Part shown: one piece after another, positions 11,702 through 57,521 of the stretch
Position numbering within the stretch: the stretch's first letter is position 1
Layout: each line of letters starts with the position of its first letter
Source: Cetobacterium sp. ZOR0034
GTDB taxonomy: Bacteria; Fusobacteriota; Fusobacteriia; Fusobacteriales; Fusobacteriaceae
Assembly: GCF_000799075.1 (NCBI RefSeq)
Contig: NZ_JTLI01000029.1
Coordinates: 1-64,000, forward strand
Reading direction: 5' to 3'
DNA length: 64,000 bases
The notes under the pieces: generated by a model
Told to the model about the DNA's origin: nothing
The model's database searches: none
What the model saw: only the letters and a program-made list of their open reading frames with translations
Translations under genes and position numbers: made by a program

Positions 11702-13177
11702 TTAATTACTCTTCCATGATTTTTTACTTAAGACAATAGCTCCTAAAATCCCAATTAAAATAATAACCCATCCATAAACTGTCAAAGCCAATCCTGAATA
11801 ACCTCCATATGGTGCTTTAAACTCATTAAATATACTTTGAACCAATATTAAAAATAAGAATAAAGGAGTTATATATTTTATTATAATATTCCACCAAGAA
11901 CCTATTCTAATGTAAGATATTCCATTCGTGTGATTTCTAATAACATCTGCATTTAAATACCATCCTATTACAAAACTTTCTAACAGTCCTACACTAACAA
12001 TTCCATAGTTATTTATAAAATTATCCATAATATCTAAAATATATAGACCACTATTTGTTGCAAATACAATACTCAAGAAAAATCCGCAGATAGATATTCT
12101 TGTAACAACAATCTTACGTTCAATATTGAATTTATCTATTATCGCTGCTGATATAGCTTCAACTAATGAAACAGCAGAGGTTATTCCTGCAAATGTCAAA
12201 CACATAAAGAATAGAACTCCAAGTATATTTCCCCAGATTCCCATAAGAGAAAAAACTTTAGGGAATGCTATAAAAGCTAATCCAATCCCACTGCTAACAA
12301 CCTCATTTACTGGAACTCCTGAAGTAAAAGCCATAACTCCTAATATTGCAAATACTCCAATAGCACATATAAACTCAAAACTACAATTAGCAAAAGCTGT
12401 CATAAATGCACTGTTGTTTATATCAGTTTTTTTAGGTAGATAACTTGAATATGTCATCATTATTCCTGTTCCAACACTTAGAGAGAAAAATACTTGTCCG
12501 TAAGCTGCAATCCAAACCTTTGGATTCTTAAGTTTACTCCAATCAGGAGTAAATAACGTATTTAATCCTAGAGTTGCTCCTTCTAGGGTAACACCCCTCA
12601 AAACGATTATTAATACAATTATTAATAAGCAAGGTAATAAAATCTTATTATATCTTTCTATTCCAGATTTGATTCCCTTGTAGCATATAAACCAATTTAT
12701 TAACCATATAATTGTAATTCCAATTAATATATGTAAAACAATTCCATTAAAATCAAAAGGTGAACTTGAAATATTTAAAAAATCATTATAAAAATAACTA
12801 TTTGAATCGTTACCCCAGCCTTTTGTAAAACTAAGAGTTAAATATTTCATAGCCATACTAAGCACTAATGAATAATAGCAAAGTATAAATCCAGAACTTA
12901 TAATCGGCCACCAACCCATCCACTCAAATTTTTTATTTATTCTAAATAGTGAAAGAGGTGTTGAACCTCTATATTTATGACCAACTCCATATTCTAATAT
13001 TAATAATGGAATTCCTGCTGTAAATATTGCTACAAAATATGGAATTAAAAATGCACCTCCACCATTTGAATAAACTACATAAGGAAACCTCCATATATTT
13101 CCAAGACCAACTGCTGATCCTATCGCTGCTATGATAAAGCCCATCTTTGAGCTCCACTGCTCTCTATTCTCTTCCAC
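11702..13177 (-). CDS. NSS (SNF) family sodium:amino-acid symporter
   Basis: The 491-residue membrane protein has the NSS signature in helix 1 (AAIGSAVGLGNIWRFPYVVYSNGGGAF) and 11-12 segments, like LeuT and MetP. It takes up an amino acid with Na+. The start is GTG (13177) with AGGAGG upstream. The preceding leader peptide carries four consecutive leucine codons and an attenuator, which points to leucine or other branched-chain amino acids as substrate. The MetS-like small subunit follows. Confidence 0.9.
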   Translation of the reverse strand: MEENREQWSSKMGFIIAAIGSAVGLGNIWRFPYVVYSNGGGAFLIPYFVAIFTAGIPLLILEYGVGHKYRGSTPLSLFRINKKFEWMGWWPIISSGFILCYYSLVLSMAMKYLTLSFTKGWGNDSNSYFYNDFLNISSSPFDFNGIVLHILIGITIIWLINWFICYKGIKSGIERYNKILLPCLLIIVLIIVLRGVTLEGATLGLNTLFTPDWSKLKNPKVWIAAYGQVFFSLSVGTGIMMTYSSYLPKKTDINNSAFMTAFANCSFEFICAIGVFAILGVMAFTSGVPVNEVVSSGIGLAFIAFPKVFSLMGIWGNILGVLFFMCLTFAGITSAVSLVEAISAAIIDKFNIERKIVVTRISICGFFLSIVFATNSGLYILDIMDNFINNYGIVSVGLLESFVIGWYLNADVIRNHTNGISYIRIGSWWNIIIKYITPLFLFLILVQSIFNEFKAPYGGYSGLALTVYGWVIILIGILGAIVLSKKSWKSN

Positions 13178-13321: not shown

Positions 13322-13433
13322 ACTACTGGCCCTCACAGATGAACAACGTAAAACGCAATTGCATCTATGATTCCATGTAGTTTTTCTACATTATTTTCAT
13401 AAACACAATTGCTACAATAAATCTGCCAGTAGT
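13322..13433 (-). promoter_or_regulatory. Attenuation control region (leucine leader)
   Basis: Segment 1 (ACTACTGGC, 13425-13433, overlapping the CTA CTA CTG codons) is complementary over 9 bp to segment 2 (GCCAGTAGT, 13322-13330). Nested GCAATTG/CAATTGC and ATGTAG/CTACAT stems lie between. TGTGAGG (13331-13337), next to segment 2, pairs with the 5' arm of the terminator. A ribosome stalled on the Leu codons would cover segment 1 and favour the antiterminator; one that finishes the peptide would allow 1:2 and the terminator. Confidence 0.75.
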
Positions 13434-13480
13434 AGGAGTACATTATTAAATTTTAATTTTTTAACTATTATATTTTTCAT
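13412..13480 (-). CDS. Leucine-rich leader peptide (22 aa)
   Basis: The peptide MKNIIVKKLKFNNVLLLLADLL starts at ATG 13480 with a near-perfect ribosome site (GAAGGAGG). Six of its last eight sense codons are leucine, including CTC CTA CTA CTG in a row, then TTA TTG before TAG. It is followed by competing hairpins and a terminator, then the symporter gene. This is the layout of classical amino-acid operon leader peptides, so translation speed should sense charged tRNA-Leu. Confidence 0.82.
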   Translation of the reverse strand: MKNIIVKKLKFNNVLLLLADLL

Positions 13481-21792: not shown

Positions 21793-21822
21793 GAGAGAAG
21801 AGCTTAAACTCTTCTCCGTCCT
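21793..21822 (-). terminator. Hairpin after the cobalamin riboswitch
   Basis: The stem GAGAAGAG/CTCTTCTC with loop TTTAAG lies between the aptamer and the cbiK ribosome site. There is no strong T run, so it may act in translation control or as a weak terminator. Confidence 0.45.
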
Positions 21823-21995
21823 CGCAGATTATAATGGCAGGTCTCCTGACTCAGATTCACTTTACTCATATTCCTTCCCAAATTTTAAAATAAAAATTCA
21901 GTGGATTAATCTATTTTCATCCTCTTTACAGTGGCGGGACCGTTTAAGCTTTTCACTCAATTCCCTTTTAATCTTTCGAACCATTACAGAGGTAT
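21822..21995 (-). ncRNA. Cobalamin riboswitch
   Basis: On the minus strand the conserved parts occur in order: AAAGGGAA near 21963, the B12-box core CGCCACTG (21930-21937 region), GGGAAGG, and the closing GTCAGGAGACCTGCC (21838-21852). The kissing-loop partners GGTCCCG and GAGGAC are visible. It precedes cbiK, so adenosylcobalamin or a related corrinoid should repress it. Confidence 0.93.
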
Positions 21996-22083
21996 ATTAT
22001 CATTACATTGTATTTTTTTCAATCATTCTATAAAAAAAGAATACTCCGTGAGCTATATATATATTATGTTGATATTTAAATAT

Positions 22084-22341: not shown

Positions 22342-22508
22342 CCTACTCATCTCCTTATATTTAAAGAATTTACACCATTAATTCCATATTTTTATTTACT
22401 GTAAAATAAACAACTTTCCTTGCAATTAATCTACATTTTAAAATATACAATAAAAGTATTTGACTTTTTTTATTTTTTGTTATATTATTTTAATACAGTC
22501 TTTATATT

Positions 22509-22575
22509 TTGGCAAAATAAGGGAAACCTTATGACGCAAAGCTACAGGGTCTTTTAAATGACAGCCAGCTACACT
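22509..22575 (+). ncRNA. Cyclic di-GMP-I riboswitch (GEMM)
   Basis: The aptamer has the conserved elements GGCAAA, a GAAA tetraloop stem (AAGGGAAACCTT), the ACGCAAAGC core, AGGGTC with GAC, and the tetraloop receptor side ACAGCCAGCTAC. It lies in the leader of the DUF4402 gene. The last bases of the aptamer are the 5' arm of the terminator that follows. Confidence 0.9.
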
Positions 22576-22597
22576 TTATAGTGTAGTTGGTTTTTTT
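22565..22597 (+). terminator. Expression-platform terminator of the c-di-GMP riboswitch
   Basis: CCAGCTACAC/GTGTAGTTGG with loop TTTATA is followed by TTTTTTT. The 5' arm overlaps the 3' end of the aptamer, so ligand binding and termination are likely exclusive, suggesting an ON switch. Confidence 0.85.
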
Positions 22598-53468: not shown

Positions 53469-54644
53469 TTACTTTTTTGTAGCTTCAAAAGCCTCTTTAA
53501 CTTTTAATAATTCACTCTCATTTAAAATCAATTTAAGTCCTAAAAGTGCCAAAGCTTTTCCTCCTAAAATAACAGCTTCATCTCCAGCTAAAGAACCTGC
53601 TGCATCATTAAACTCATGAGTGTGTCCAACAACACATGAATCACAAATTTTAATATTTGGATGAATTGTTGGAACAATGTGACTTACATTTCCAACATCT
53701 GTTGAACCCATACTTTTCTTAGAATCCACTAAAACTTCTACTCCTAACTTTTTCATAACATCAACATAAAGATCATCAAAATATCTTATTTGAACTAAGT
53801 TATCAACTCTATTTTGGAAACTAGAAACTTTCGACTTACATCCAGTCATAAGAGCAGCACCATCTGCTATATCCACAATTTTTTGTGTAACCTCGTCACA
53901 CCCCTCTTTTGTTGCAGCACGAATATAAAATCTAGCTTTTGTATAATCTGGAATTATATTTGGAGCATCCCCACCATGAGTAATAATCCCGTGAATTTTT
54001 ATATCTGATGTAACATGCTGTCTCAATGTAGCTATTCCATTGAAAAAATGTAATAAGGCATCTAAAGCATTTTTTCCACTTTCTGGAGACCCAGCAGCAT
54101 GAGCAGACTTTCCAAAGAATTCAAAATCCAAGGGATTTACAGCCAAACTATTTTTTGTTATTGAGTGCTCGCTACTTGGATGAATAATCATAGCTGCATC
54201 TATTCCTTCAAAAAGATTCTCTCTCACAAATGAGCCTTTTGCACTTCCATTTTGTCCTCCCTCTTCTGCAGGGCACCCATATATAACTACTTCACCTGGG
54301 ATATTTTCCAAAGAGTCAGCAAGAGCAACTCCACCAGCTACACTTATTCCGGCTATAACATTGTGCCCACAAGCATGCCCTAAATTTGGCAAAGCATCAT
54401 ACTCAGCTAAAAAAGCAAGTTTTGGATACTCACCATGAATTGATTTTTTTCTAGCTATAAATCCTGTTTTATGTCCAGCTATATCTCTTTCTACATCGAA
54501 CCCCTTCGATTCCAAATAGTTTGTTAGCAACTCAGATGCAAAATACTCTTCGTTTCCAATCTCGGGATTTTTATGTATATTTTGACTTAAACTTATAAAC
54601 TCATCTCTATTCTCATCTAAAAAACCTATTATTCTATTTTCCAT
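53469..54644 (-). CDS. M20-family amidohydrolase (N-acyl-amino-acid hydrolase type)
   Basis: The protein of about 391 residues has metal-binding motifs GHACGHNVIAG and CPAEEGGQNGSAKG, and the dimerisation domain LHFFNGIATLRQHV, as in the M20 aminoacylase/hippurate hydrolase group. It releases amino acids from N-acyl derivatives or from dipeptides. Start at 54644 has GGGAGG. It follows metQ by 36 nt, behind the methionine attenuator, so its product is probably methionine. Confidence 0.87.
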   Translation of the reverse strand: MENRIIGFLDENRDEFISLSQNIHKNPEIGNEEYFASELLTNYLESKGFDVERDIAGHKTGFIARKKSIHGEYPKLAFLAEYDALPNLGHACGHNVIAGISVAGGVALADSLENIPGEVVIYGCPAEEGGQNGSAKGSFVRENLFEGIDAAMIIHPSSEHSITKNSLAVNPLDFEFFGKSAHAAGSPESGKNALDALLHFFNGIATLRQHVTSDIKIHGIITHGGDAPNIIPDYTKARFYIRAATKEGCDEVTQKIVDIADGAALMTGCKSKVSSFQNRVDNLVQIRYFDDLYVDVMKKLGVEVLVDSKKSMGSTDVGNVSHIVPTIHPNIKICDSCVVGHTHEFNDAAGSLAGDEAVILGGKALALLGLKLILNESELLKVKEAFEATKK

Positions 54645-54680
54645 TTTAAATCCTCCCAATCTTATCTTTTTTATTTTTAT

Positions 54681-55499
54681 TTAAAATACAGCTATTGATG
54701 ATCCTCTATAATAATCATCTATTATTTTTTTATTCTCAGCAGTTTGATATATCTCTAAAACTCTTTTTATTTCAGGGTTATTTTGATTATCCTCTCTTGC
54801 TGCTATAATATTAAAGTATGGTTTCAATCTCTCATTTTTGAAGTCTTCAATAAATATTGAATCTTGCAGAGGCGAATACCCAGCTTGAACAGCAACCCCA
54901 TTATTTATAGCTGCCACATCTACATCCTCTATTGATCTTGGAATTTGTGTTGCTACAAGCTCAACAATTTTTATTCCTTTCGGATTAGCTACTATATCTT
55001 TAACTCTTGGAAATGCTCCTGCTTCTTTATTTAAAGTTACTAATCCTGCATCTTGAAGTAATAATAGTGCTCTTCCACCATTTGAACTATCATTTGGTAT
55101 TGCTACTGTTGCCCCATCTTTTAAAGCTGATAAATCAGTTATCTTTTTAGAATATATCCCCATCGGTGCTAAAACCGTATATCCTAAATTTACAATACTT
55201 AACTTATGCTCTTTCTTAAAATTATCAAAGTATATCTCAGTTTGAAAAGCATTTATATCTATCTCTTTTTCCTGCAAAGCTAAGTTTGGTCTTATATAAT
55301 CCGCAAAATTTATAAACTTCAACTCTATATTCTCTTTTTTTAATTCATCTCTAACATTTTCCCAAATAACATTCTCATCTCCATTTATTCCTAACTTTAC
55401 AATCTTAGTTCCTGAAGTTACATCTTCTGATTTTTTTCCACAACCTACAACTCCTAAAATAGATAGCACTACTAATAAAATAACTCTTAATTTTTTCAT
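54681..55499 (-). CDS. metQ: Methionine ABC transporter substrate-binding lipoprotein MetQ
   Basis: The 272-residue protein has a lipobox (GVVGC, cysteine at residue 20) and the NlpA/MetQ fold: VKLGINGDENVIWENV, NAFQTEIYFDNFKKEH, APMGIYSKKI, VAIPNDSSNGGRALLLLQ and AAINNGVAVQAG. It binds methionine for the MetNI importer. Confidence 0.92.
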   Translation of the reverse strand: MKKLRVILLVVLSILGVVGCGKKSEDVTSGTKIVKLGINGDENVIWENVRDELKKENIELKFINFADYIRPNLALQEKEIDINAFQTEIYFDNFKKEHKLSIVNLGYTVLAPMGIYSKKITDLSALKDGATVAIPNDSSNGGRALLLLQDAGLVTLNKEAGAFPRVKDIVANPKGIKIVELVATQIPRSIEDVDVAAINNGVAVQAGYSPLQDSIFIEDFKNERLKPYFNIIAAREDNQNNPEIKRVLEIYQTAENKKIIDDYYRGSSIAVF

Positions 55500-55524: not shown

Positions 55525-56205
55525 TTATTTTTTTATTCTTTTTAATATTTTTTCTCCAGACCATTGAATTGCTGTAATCAAAGTCACAAGTATGACAATT
55601 GTTACAACCATAATATCCGTTTTAAAATGTTGATATCCATATCTTATTGCAAAGTCTCCAAGACCTCCTCCACCAACAGTTCCTGCCACTGCTGAAAATC
55701 CAATCAAACTAACTGTTGTTATAATAAGAGCATATATAATTTCAGGTAGAGCTTCTCTTAGTAAAACTCTATAGATTATTTCAAAAGGTGTTGAACCCAT
55801 TGAATACGCTGCTTCTATAACTCCTGAATCCACTCCCAAAAGTGCTGATTCAATCTGTCTAGCCACAAAAGGTGCTGACCCAAATATAAGAGGAACAATC
55901 GCTCCTTTCAATCCAATAGTTGTTCCCATAAAAAATCTTGTTACAGGAATCAAAGCTGCAAGTAAAATCACAAATGGAATTGATCTAAACACATTTATAA
56001 TCTTCCCCAAAATACTATTGATTAAGTTATTTTCTAAAATTCCATCTTTTCTAGTCACAACCAAAACTATCCCCATTAAAAGTCCAATCAGCGTTGAGAT
56101 TGTTCCTGCTATAGATACCATTAACAAAGTTTCTCCCATGGCACGAACCATCTCATCTTGATACTTAATTACATTTTCTAAAGAACTATATAGCTTTTCT
56201 ACCAT
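55525..56205 (-). CDS. metI: Methionine ABC transporter permease MetI
   Basis: The 226-residue protein has five or six membrane segments and the MetI pattern: ETLLMVSIAGTISTLIGLLMGIVL, RSIPFVILLAALIPVTRF, the EAA-type loop EAAYSMGSTPFEIIYRVLLREALPEI, and AVAGTVGGGGLGDFAIRYGYQ. It overlaps metN by 20 nt. Confidence 0.93.
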   Translation of the reverse strand: MVEKLYSSLENVIKYQDEMVRAMGETLLMVSIAGTISTLIGLLMGIVLVVTRKDGILENNLINSILGKIINVFRSIPFVILLAALIPVTRFFMGTTIGLKGAIVPLIFGSAPFVARQIESALLGVDSGVIEAAYSMGSTPFEIIYRVLLREALPEIIYALIITTVSLIGFSAVAGTVGGGGLGDFAIRYGYQHFKTDIMVVTIVILVTLITAIQWSGEKILKRIKK

Positions 56206-57220
56206 CTTTTAAAACCTCCGTGTATATATTATTTTTATTTAAGTAATCTAAGGAATTTTGGATATTTTCCTCTTCCCCTTTCAATTTCACAACCAAGTTT
56301 CCTATTGGTGTTTCCTTTATAATCTCTATATTTCCAAAAAGGATACTACCATCAACATCATAATCTCTTGATATTTTTGAAATGTAAGCCTCCTCTGTAT
56401 TACTACCAACATAAGCTAACTTAATTATTTTTTCATCGCCTTTTACAAGAACTGTGTTTAAATAATCATTTATCTTATCACTATTGAAAACTGAGGATAA
56501 AAACCTTTTTGTTATTGGCTCTTTCGGTCTCGAGAAAATATCTATAACATCCCCCTCTTCTTTTACAAACCCATCTTCCATAACAATAACTCTATCACAA
56601 ATCTCTTTTATAACCTCCATCTGATGAGTTATCAAAACAATGGTTACTCCTAAATCTTTATTTATTTTTTTTAGTAGTTTTAAAATAGATACTGTTGTTT
56701 CTGGATCTAGGGCTGAGGTTGCTTCATCACAAAGGATTATATCTGGATTATTCGCTAACGCTCTAGCTATTCCAACTCTTTGCTTTTGTCCTCCAGAAAG
56801 TTGTGATGGATAACTACTTTTTTTATCTTTTAATCCAACTAAATCCAACAAACTATTTACTCTTTCATCTATCTCAGCTTTTGAAAGTCCACTGCCTTTC
56901 AATGGGTAAGCTATATTTTTAGCAACTGTCCTACTTCTCATCAGATTGAAATGTTGAAATATCATCCCAATTTTTTTTCTTTTCTCTCTAAGCTCTCTCG
57001 CATTTAAAGACCCTAACTCAACTCCATCAATTAAAACTTCTCCAGAACATGGTGTCTCTAAAAGATTTATACATCTCAGCAGCGTACTTTTTCCAGCTCC
57101 AGAATAACCTATAATTCCTGTAATCTCTCCTTTTTTAAAATCGAAAGATAGTTCTTTTAATGCCTCAACACTTTGACCTTTACTCTCATAAGTTTTTATA
57201 ATATTCCTAAGTTGTATCAT
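56186..57220 (-). CDS. metN: Methionine ABC transporter ATP-binding protein MetN
   Basis: The 344-residue protein has Walker A GYSGAGKST, signature LSGGQKQR, Walker B IILCDEATSALDPET, H-loop ITHQME, and a C-terminal NIL domain (about 265-344) that binds methionine for feedback inhibition. The start is 57220, behind GGAGGAG; the longer frame to 57298 would translate the attenuator terminator. Confidence 0.93.
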   Translation of the reverse strand: MIQLRNIIKTYESKGQSVEALKELSFDFKKGEITGIIGYSGAGKSTLLRCINLLETPCSGEVLIDGVELGSLNARELREKRKKIGMIFQHFNLMRSRTVAKNIAYPLKGSGLSKAEIDERVNSLLDLVGLKDKKSSYPSQLSGGQKQRVGIARALANNPDIILCDEATSALDPETTVSILKLLKKINKDLGVTIVLITHQMEVIKEICDRVIVMEDGFVKEEGDVIDIFSRPKEPITKRFLSSVFNSDKINDYLNTVLVKGDEKIIKLAYVGSNTEEAYISKISRDYDVDGSILFGNIEIIKETPIGNLVVKLKGEEENIQNSLDYLNKNNIYTEVLKDGRKAI

Positions 57221-57271
57221 ATCTATCTCCTCCAAATATTTTATATTTTTAATTTTTTGAAAAAATTGTAT

Positions 57272-57302
57272 AAAAAAAAGCTTGAGATTTAATCCCAAGC
57301 TT
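57272..57302 (-). terminator. Attenuator terminator of the met operon
   Basis: An 11-bp stem (AAGCTTGGGAT with ATCTCAAGCTT, loop TAA) is followed by seven or eight T on the minus strand, 52 nt before metN. Confidence 0.88.
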
Positions 57303-57396
57303 TATGTTAACAACTTTATTCCTTGGGAGCTCTCTTTTTGTAAGCAAAAATGAGTTCGTCCCAAAATTAAAAATTAATTTTTGGTTCCAACTCCCA
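57293..57396 (-). promoter_or_regulatory. Attenuation control region (methionine leader)
   Basis: Segment 1 TGGGAGTT (57389-57396, just after the Met codons) pairs with segment 2 AGCTCCCA (57324-57331). Segment 2 TCCCAAG (57322-57328) can instead pair with CTTGGGA (57293-57299), the 5' arm of the terminator. The three structures are exclusive, as in classical leader-peptide attenuation. Confidence 0.8.
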
Positions 57397-57448
57397 TAGG
57401 CATCATATTCATCATTGTAGTTTTTGATATTAAATTATAGTTCGTCAT
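57374..57448 (-). CDS. Methionine-rich leader peptide (24 aa)
   Basis: The peptide starts MTNYNLISKTT and continues MMNMMPMGVGTKN. Five of seven consecutive codons (residues 12-18) are ATG. AAGGAG lies at correct distance from the ATG at 57448. It precedes competing hairpins, a terminator and metNIQ. A ribosome slowed by scarce charged tRNA-Met would release attenuation. Confidence 0.85.
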   Translation of the reverse strand: MTNYNLISKTTMMNMMPMGVGTKN

Positions 57449-57521
57449 TTAACTACTCCTTCGATAAATTATTTTTAAGTATACTAACATATGAAAATTT
57501 AGAAGTCAAATTATTTTTTAA

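Follow-up and report, generated by a model that had tools for sequence, protein, structure and literature searches.

The metNIQ operon of Cetobacterium sp. ZOR0034 is very probably controlled by ribosome-mediated transcription attenuation, with a methionine-rich leader sensing charged elongator Met-tRNA. The window, that is, the whole stretch of 64,000 nucleotides analysed here, carries this operon on its minus strand, in the order leader-metN-metI-metQ-M20 amidohydrolase. From the promoter to the last gene, the following features were identified.

57481..57509, minus strand: promoter-like sequence TTGACT-17-TAGTAT with an extended TG, from a consensus scan
57456..57461, minus strand: Shine-Dalgarno (SD) sequence AAGGAG of the leader ORF, 7 nt 5' of the start codon
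57374..57448, minus strand: leader ORF MTNYNLISKTTMMNMMPMGVGTKN, 24 codons, ATG start, TAA stop
57416..57456, minus strand: helix P0, formed by the SD spacer GUAGUU (57456-57451) and the Lys-Thr-Thr codons AACUAC (57421-57416)
57395..57415, minus strand: regulatory codons M12-M18 (MMNMMPM), from the sequence and shuffles
57389..57400, minus strand: segment 1 CCUAUGGGAGUU, partner of segment 2, overlapping the last Met codon
57361..57384, minus strand: hairpin P2 CCAAAAAUUAAUUUUUAAUUUUGG, with the leader stop codon inside its 5' arm
57359..57366, minus strand: segment 1' UUUUGGGA, the P2 3' arm and the next bases, from constrained folds
57332..57354, minus strand: hairpin P3, CUC-A-UUUUUG..CAAAAA-GAG
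57321..57331, minus strand: segment 2 AGCUCCCAAGG
57293..57299, minus strand: segment 3 CUUGGGA, putative antiterminator partner of segment 2 and also terminator 5' arm
57272..57302, minus strand: intrinsic terminator AAGCUUGGGAUUAAAUCUCAAGCUU followed by U8, stem 57302..57278, from a terminator scan
56186..57220, minus strand: metN, methionine ABC transporter ATPase with a NIL domain
55525..56205, minus strand: metI, permease
54681..55499, minus strand: metQ, NlpA-type lipoprotein
53469..54659, minus strand: M20 amidohydrolase, last gene of the operon

An ORF with its own start codon, SD sequence and stop codon therefore lies between the promoter and the structural gene, and its codon run (5 ATG in the 7 codons 12-18) matches the amino acid of the operon. 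The RNA offers mutually exclusive 1:2, 2:3 and 3:4 pairings and ends in an intrinsic terminator. In the 1:2 pairing, 57389-57396 (UGGGAGUU) faces 57324-57331 (AGCUCCCA) and the duplex is lengthened by CCU/AGG; in the 2:3 pairing, 57322-57328 (UCCCAAG) faces 57293-57299 (CUUGGGA). An earlier note on this DNA had placed a Met leader peptide and an attenuator before metNIQ. Its 24-residue leader with five ATG codons among seven is indeed present in the sequence, and the segments that it named, 57389-57396, 57322-57331 and 57293-57299, do give the 1:2, 2:3 and terminator structures. P2, P3 and P0 are additional elements beyond those that it described.

The leader folds with a z score of -3.5, and none of 200 dinucleotide shuffles was equally stable. 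Among ORFs of 8-60 codons in 5000 dinucleotide shuffles of 57230-57521 (minus strand), none exceeded 3 Met in any 7 codons. A terminator scan over 2.5 kb gave 3 sites against 0.7 expected, the terminator of the metN leader being the best of them. At the other end of the operon, the M20 amidohydrolase encoded after metQ could free Met from an imported N-acyl form or peptide.

Conservation was examined within g1, the genus of the window's genome; g4 and g14 denote other genera, and f1 and f4 families, f1 being labelled Fusobacteriaceae. The leader precedes the window-type metN in the nine g1 genomes where both were read, and a tenth leader lies at a contig end. ORF, SD sequence, Met run, pairings and terminator are retained at metN in 10 genomes. 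Between roughly codon 6 and the U run, the leader is 93-100% identical across g1 lineages, as compared to 40-61% for the fourfold-degenerate sites of metN between the same lineages (G011, with a frame break in the alignment, was left out of the metN codon comparisons). The promoter is retained in all relatives although farther-upstream DNA varies, and the AGGAG of the SD sequence shows no variation in 15 g1 copies of the leader. Within the leader ORF, copies differ in length only by multiples of 3, through residues close to the N terminus and a single ATG; in P3 and the linkers, indels of 1, 2 or 4 bases also occur. The run itself contains 4-6 Met in the g1 copies. Helix P0 is present in 9/9 metN leaders (RNAalifold consensus) and hairpin P2 is invariant across 14 distinct copies, while the pairing of P3 in the window's genome differs from that in the other copies. 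We rejected the idea that the leader is a recently spread mobile piece: it keeps to metN despite varying upstream flanks, and metN itself has diverged, so that constraint is likelier than recent spread.

Overall, the conservation of the leader exceeds the apparent need of codons and pairings. Pairing with the SD spacer in P0 would account for the conservation of the Lys-Thr-Thr codons, and overlap with segment 1 and P2 for that of the last leader codons; the conserved linker GGAAUAAAGUUGUUAACAUAAAGC falls outside the codons and pairings to which a role was assigned.

With the leader DNA as a query, diverged copies, 77-85% identical, were found in the same g1 genomes. The window genome's own paralogue encodes the peptide MFKKTIKTTMMNMMPLGVGTKN and precedes metY-metF-metA-hom; paralogues in g1 relatives precede the metY operon, lysC or the gene of a family-5 solute-binding protein (SBP). 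Seven intact diverged paralogues, at metY-metF-metA-hom, lysC and SBP loci, keep the leader architecture. All 15 g1 copies preserve the Met run along with the three pairings, which bears out the leader and attenuator proposed before metNIQ. A covariance model built from these 15 g1 copies only matches copies in g14, with E values of about 1e-4 to 1e-6, and in the reverse search a g14-only model matches the g1 copies with E values of about 3e-4 to 8e-3. The g14 copies precede metN, metG (methionyl-tRNA synthetase, TIGR00398), metY-metF and hom-metY. Their peptides (MRNFEFRQLNMMMMLWKGL, MVNSRIGQLNMLMMMLW and MYNSKIEQLNILMLMMLW) have little in common with the g1 peptides beyond the Met run directly before segment 1. 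Hence, the Met codons and pairings, whose loss from related leaders the earlier note had named as evidence against its reading, are conserved in g1 and, in diverged form, in g14. Further matches of model R1 (in G042, G062, G013 at second place, and G097) and of model R2 (in G097, G035, G027 and G028) were discarded as terminator-like or unrelated sequences without a Met ORF. One locus, L254 (G059:C2:1158962-1159046), carries a decayed g14 leader, MINSRIGQLNMLMMQN, without hairpins or terminator, which could be a relic or a lost attenuator.

Judged from the downstream genes, the regulon comprises biosynthesis as well as uptake, plus, in g14, tRNA charging. These genes thus identify the signal independently of the leader, as methionine or Met-tRNA. 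In addition, the presence of a tRNA synthetase gene behind the same switch suggests that the signal is tRNA charging rather than SAM. The gene set also bears on whether the leader could be a general sensor of translation or antibiotics, of the ermC or bmrB type and Met-rich by chance. Such leaders are known (PMC4191407), but all controlled genes with a clear function are methionine genes or encode aspartokinase, the sole exception being a peptide-binding protein whose substrate is unclear. We regard a general sensor as exceedingly improbable. Next to no probability is given to a scheme that works chiefly in trans, through the prematurely ended leader transcript or the peptide, attenuation being secondary. 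A trans-acting product could explain a conservation greater than attenuation requires, and the Sinorhizobium peptide peTrpL works in trans (PMC7298713); however, there are several diverged copies per genome, each of which precedes met-related genes at the loci read.

Across all 15 g1 copies, the energy of the 1:2 duplex ranges from -14.9 to -15.7 kcal/mol and that of the 2:3 duplex from -11.7 to -13.9 kcal/mol; the 3:4 pairing is present in 15/15, and the duplexes also occur in 10 g14 copies. In the terminator, double compensatory changes are observed in paralogues at two pairs (UA to GC and AU to UA). The segment 2 of a paralogue scores -8.4 with the segment 3 of a metN copy versus -13.6 within its own set. 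This swap is asymmetric, the segment 2 of the metN copy pairing well with either segment 3. In one g14 genome, both sides of an antiterminator pair are changed, from GUCUGCCA/UGGUAGAC to GUUUGCCA/UGGCAAAC. Within g1, covariation of the antiterminator is weak, as a version slid by one column scores equally well, and covariation is uninformative on 1:2 and P2 because both barely vary.

The RNA was then folded as a nascent transcript ending with segment 3, the ribosome being represented by a mask of 30 nt. In the window leader, the antiterminator has a modelled probability of 0.22 when no ribosome is present. This value rises to 0.71-0.95 for A-site positions M13-M18, does not exceed 0.04 for codons 19-24 and is 0.40 when the ribosome has reached the leader stop codon. 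The drop past the Met run is explained in the model by the opening of P2 by the ribosome, so that the 3' arm UUUUGGGA takes segment 2. UGGGA is present three times (segments 1, 1' and 3) for one UCCCA in segment 2; the position of the ribosome would therefore set which of the three pairs with segment 2. The drop after the Met run is modelled in 14/15 g1 copies, the exception being the SBP copy. In 10/15 g1 copies, the free nascent RNA prefers the antiterminator at equilibrium, so that kinetics would be needed to predict a default-off state. With the full transcript, the terminator is favoured at equilibrium for every ribosome position, which implies that the antiterminator must act kinetically. 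In g14, the antiterminator must displace P3, and the fold model formed no antiterminator there.

From the comparison of copies and these modelled folds, we infer an antiterminator step that would operate as follows. When Met is plentiful, the ribosome translating the leader would pass the Met codons and reach the stop codon. There it would either cover the 5' arm of P2, so that the freed segment 1' pairs with segment 2, or leave, in which case segment 1 would pair with segment 2. With segment 2 taken by 1 or 1', segment 3 would be free, the terminator would form and metNIQ would be off. When Met is scarce, the ribosome would wait at M13-M18 and mask segment 1, while P2 would stay closed and keep 1' locked. 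Segment 2 (UCCCAAG) would then pair with segment 3 (CUUGGGA) ahead of the synthesis of the terminator 3' arm, and this 2:3 antiterminator would let RNA polymerase continue into metNIQ. One point counts against the scheme. Methionine also initiates, and Met shortage should lower initiation with fMet-tRNA as well; without initiation on the leader, 1:2 would form and the operon would stay off. How leader initiation continues under Met shortage is therefore a puzzle.

The peptide itself could be the sensor, the ribosome being arrested by its nascent chain with Met or SAM, like TnaC or SpeFL, instead of by codon hunger. In both classes of g1 leaders, KTTMMN-MM-P-x-GVxTKN is nearly invariant and the Lys-Thr-Thr codons are identical. 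However, GVG varies to GVC or GVD and PM to PL, the invariant 3' codons are accounted for by segment 1 and P2, and Lys-Thr-Thr by P0. Homologous or analogous leaders elsewhere have just the Met run in common; residues conserved beyond the regulatory codons are found in g1 and not in the g14 homologues. Altogether, nascent-peptide arrest appears quite improbable. The same near-invariant peptide, taken together with the junction RNA, also suggests that the g1 leader is a combined sensor, that is, a Met-responsive arrest peptide or an RNA-peptide switch, working despite starved initiation; we consider this unlikely. An RNA-only version would be a new riboswitch, in which a three-way junction P1-P2-P3 binds Met or SAM and the ORF is incidental. 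The junction is compact and the conservation of the DNA very high, loops included, but the SD sequence and an in-frame ORF are always retained, indels in the ORF are exclusively multiples of 3, and the Met run persists where the remaining sequence does not. The sequences of P2 and P3 are different in g14, and no Rfam family, SAM riboswitches and T-box included, was matched by the metN leader at gathering or loose thresholds. Such a riboswitch is thus very unlikely.

The Met leader was compared with the RNA sensors found at other metN genes. No T-box (RF00230) was detected in the leader or in 12 genomes of g1, and in the window's genome, the search for SAM riboswitches that gave no match in the leader placed SAM-I (RF00162) at metK and a second metN only. 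A phylum-wide MetN search in 98 genomes showed that the window's genome encodes two MetN types. The window type is found in g1 (78-97% identical) and in part of g4 (72-73%); the second type, about 50% identical to the window's, is widespread. The window-type orthologue of g4 is preceded by SAM-I, as are most other metN genes of Fusobacteriaceae. A tree built from 57 MetN proteins groups the copies of g1 with those of g4 in a well-supported clade adjoining Clostridium sp. BSD9I1, whose metN has a SAM-I riboswitch. Farther off, the metN of Dielma fastidiosa has a T-box, and in several Bacillota, T-boxes lie upstream of metN relatives. A single gene thus occurs, in closely related versions, behind three RNA sensors, SAM-I, T-box and Met leader. 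Elsewhere, at L255 (G053:C1), a tandem pair of SAM-I riboswitches precedes metN.

The earlier note had also suggested that the lineage favours attenuation for amino-acid uptake. This reading is supported with two qualifications: SAM riboswitches have not been abandoned in the lineage, since metK and the second metN keep SAM-I, and the regulon extends to biosynthesis and, in g14, to tRNA charging. Elsewhere in the window, a Leu-rich leader ORF (MKNIIVKKLKFNNVLLLLADLL; 13412-13480, minus strand) has an SD sequence and is followed by terminator-like stems; it precedes a sodium-dependent (NSS-like) transporter (11702-13177) and is probably the Leu leader mentioned in that note. The window also contains a cobalamin riboswitch (21819-22000, minus strand) and a c-di-GMP-I riboswitch (22501-22576, plus strand), on opposite strands and 500 bases apart.

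A different short metN leader, ending in Met codons, is found in six genomes of family f4, with the peptides MINKVVTFKMNMMHM, MINNVVTFEMNMMHM, MINIVVILKKKMMHMY, MKKFAKNMMMDM and MKFAITLMMHM. In these leaders (L289, L292, L293 and L295-L297), a hairpin AAGCTTGTA..TACAAGC comes directly after the stop codon and is followed by a terminator-like stem. They constitute a third leader set, apparently unrelated to those of g1 and g14, with the Met run alone retained. Met- or Met/Cys-rich leader ORFs are also located before metN in Lachnoclostridium (L023, ~2760-2870) and Agathobaculum (L024, 2802-2888), with an SD sequence and a terminator-like stem, and with no SAM riboswitch or T-box according to Rfam. 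The f4 and Bacillota leaders may be taken as leads. At L298 (G084:C1), the peptide MKRFREAMCMS, with Met and Cys codons, is encoded before metN together with a terminator, and perhaps corresponds to a Met/Cys sensor. A weak Met-rich ORF was seen at L040 (Parasutterella).

The type of control proposed for metNIQ is classical. As in the trp, his, leu, thr, phe and ilv attenuators of Proteobacteria, an ORF with cognate codons, three competing segments and an intrinsic terminator precede an operon that handles the leader's own amino acid. In contrast to them, the amino acid is methionine, the phylum is Fusobacteriota, the genes behind the leader encode a transporter here and a tRNA synthetase in g14, a second competitor arm comes from the stop-codon hairpin, and the leader is without an Rfam family. 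The attenuators represented in Rfam have been described as specific for His, Leu, Thr and Trp, Ile/Val and Phe being known besides (PMC3766115). Clear methionine cases of leader-peptide attenuation are hardly described. In the literature searched, outside subscription papers, the sole Met leader was the weakly supported metL of Streptomyces lividans, in agreement with the earlier remark that a Met leader peptide is uncommon. Like the leader described here, metL lies ahead of metNIQ, and attenuation was proposed for it (PMC8079986). Unlike here, metL (MSTTSDRTPATEATTTPGARCMCRRMCAF) has scattered Met, a leaderless transcript and no typical terminator (PMC8079986), and it concerns one genome without a regulon. 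SAM-I resembles the present leader in regulating metN, met genes and metK via an intrinsic terminator, but has no ORF; the methionine T-box resembles it in sensing tRNA charging. In a published T-box survey, neither of the two Fusobacteria/Thermotogae genomes included had one (PMC2494555).

What appears new, judged by the literature searched, is a family of methionine-specific leaders that has no Rfam entry and covers a Met regulon. If the proposed control is true, methionine would join the few amino acids known to have a clear attenuator of the leader-peptide type, here with a regulon of several operons and in a phylum from which this kind of control has hardly been reported. It would also explain how a lineage devoid of T-boxes couples its Met genes to tRNA charging. 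Finally, metN relatives lie behind SAM-I in a sister genus, behind T-boxes in some Bacillota and behind the Met leader in g1, so that the swap of one sensor for another at a single gene can be studied.
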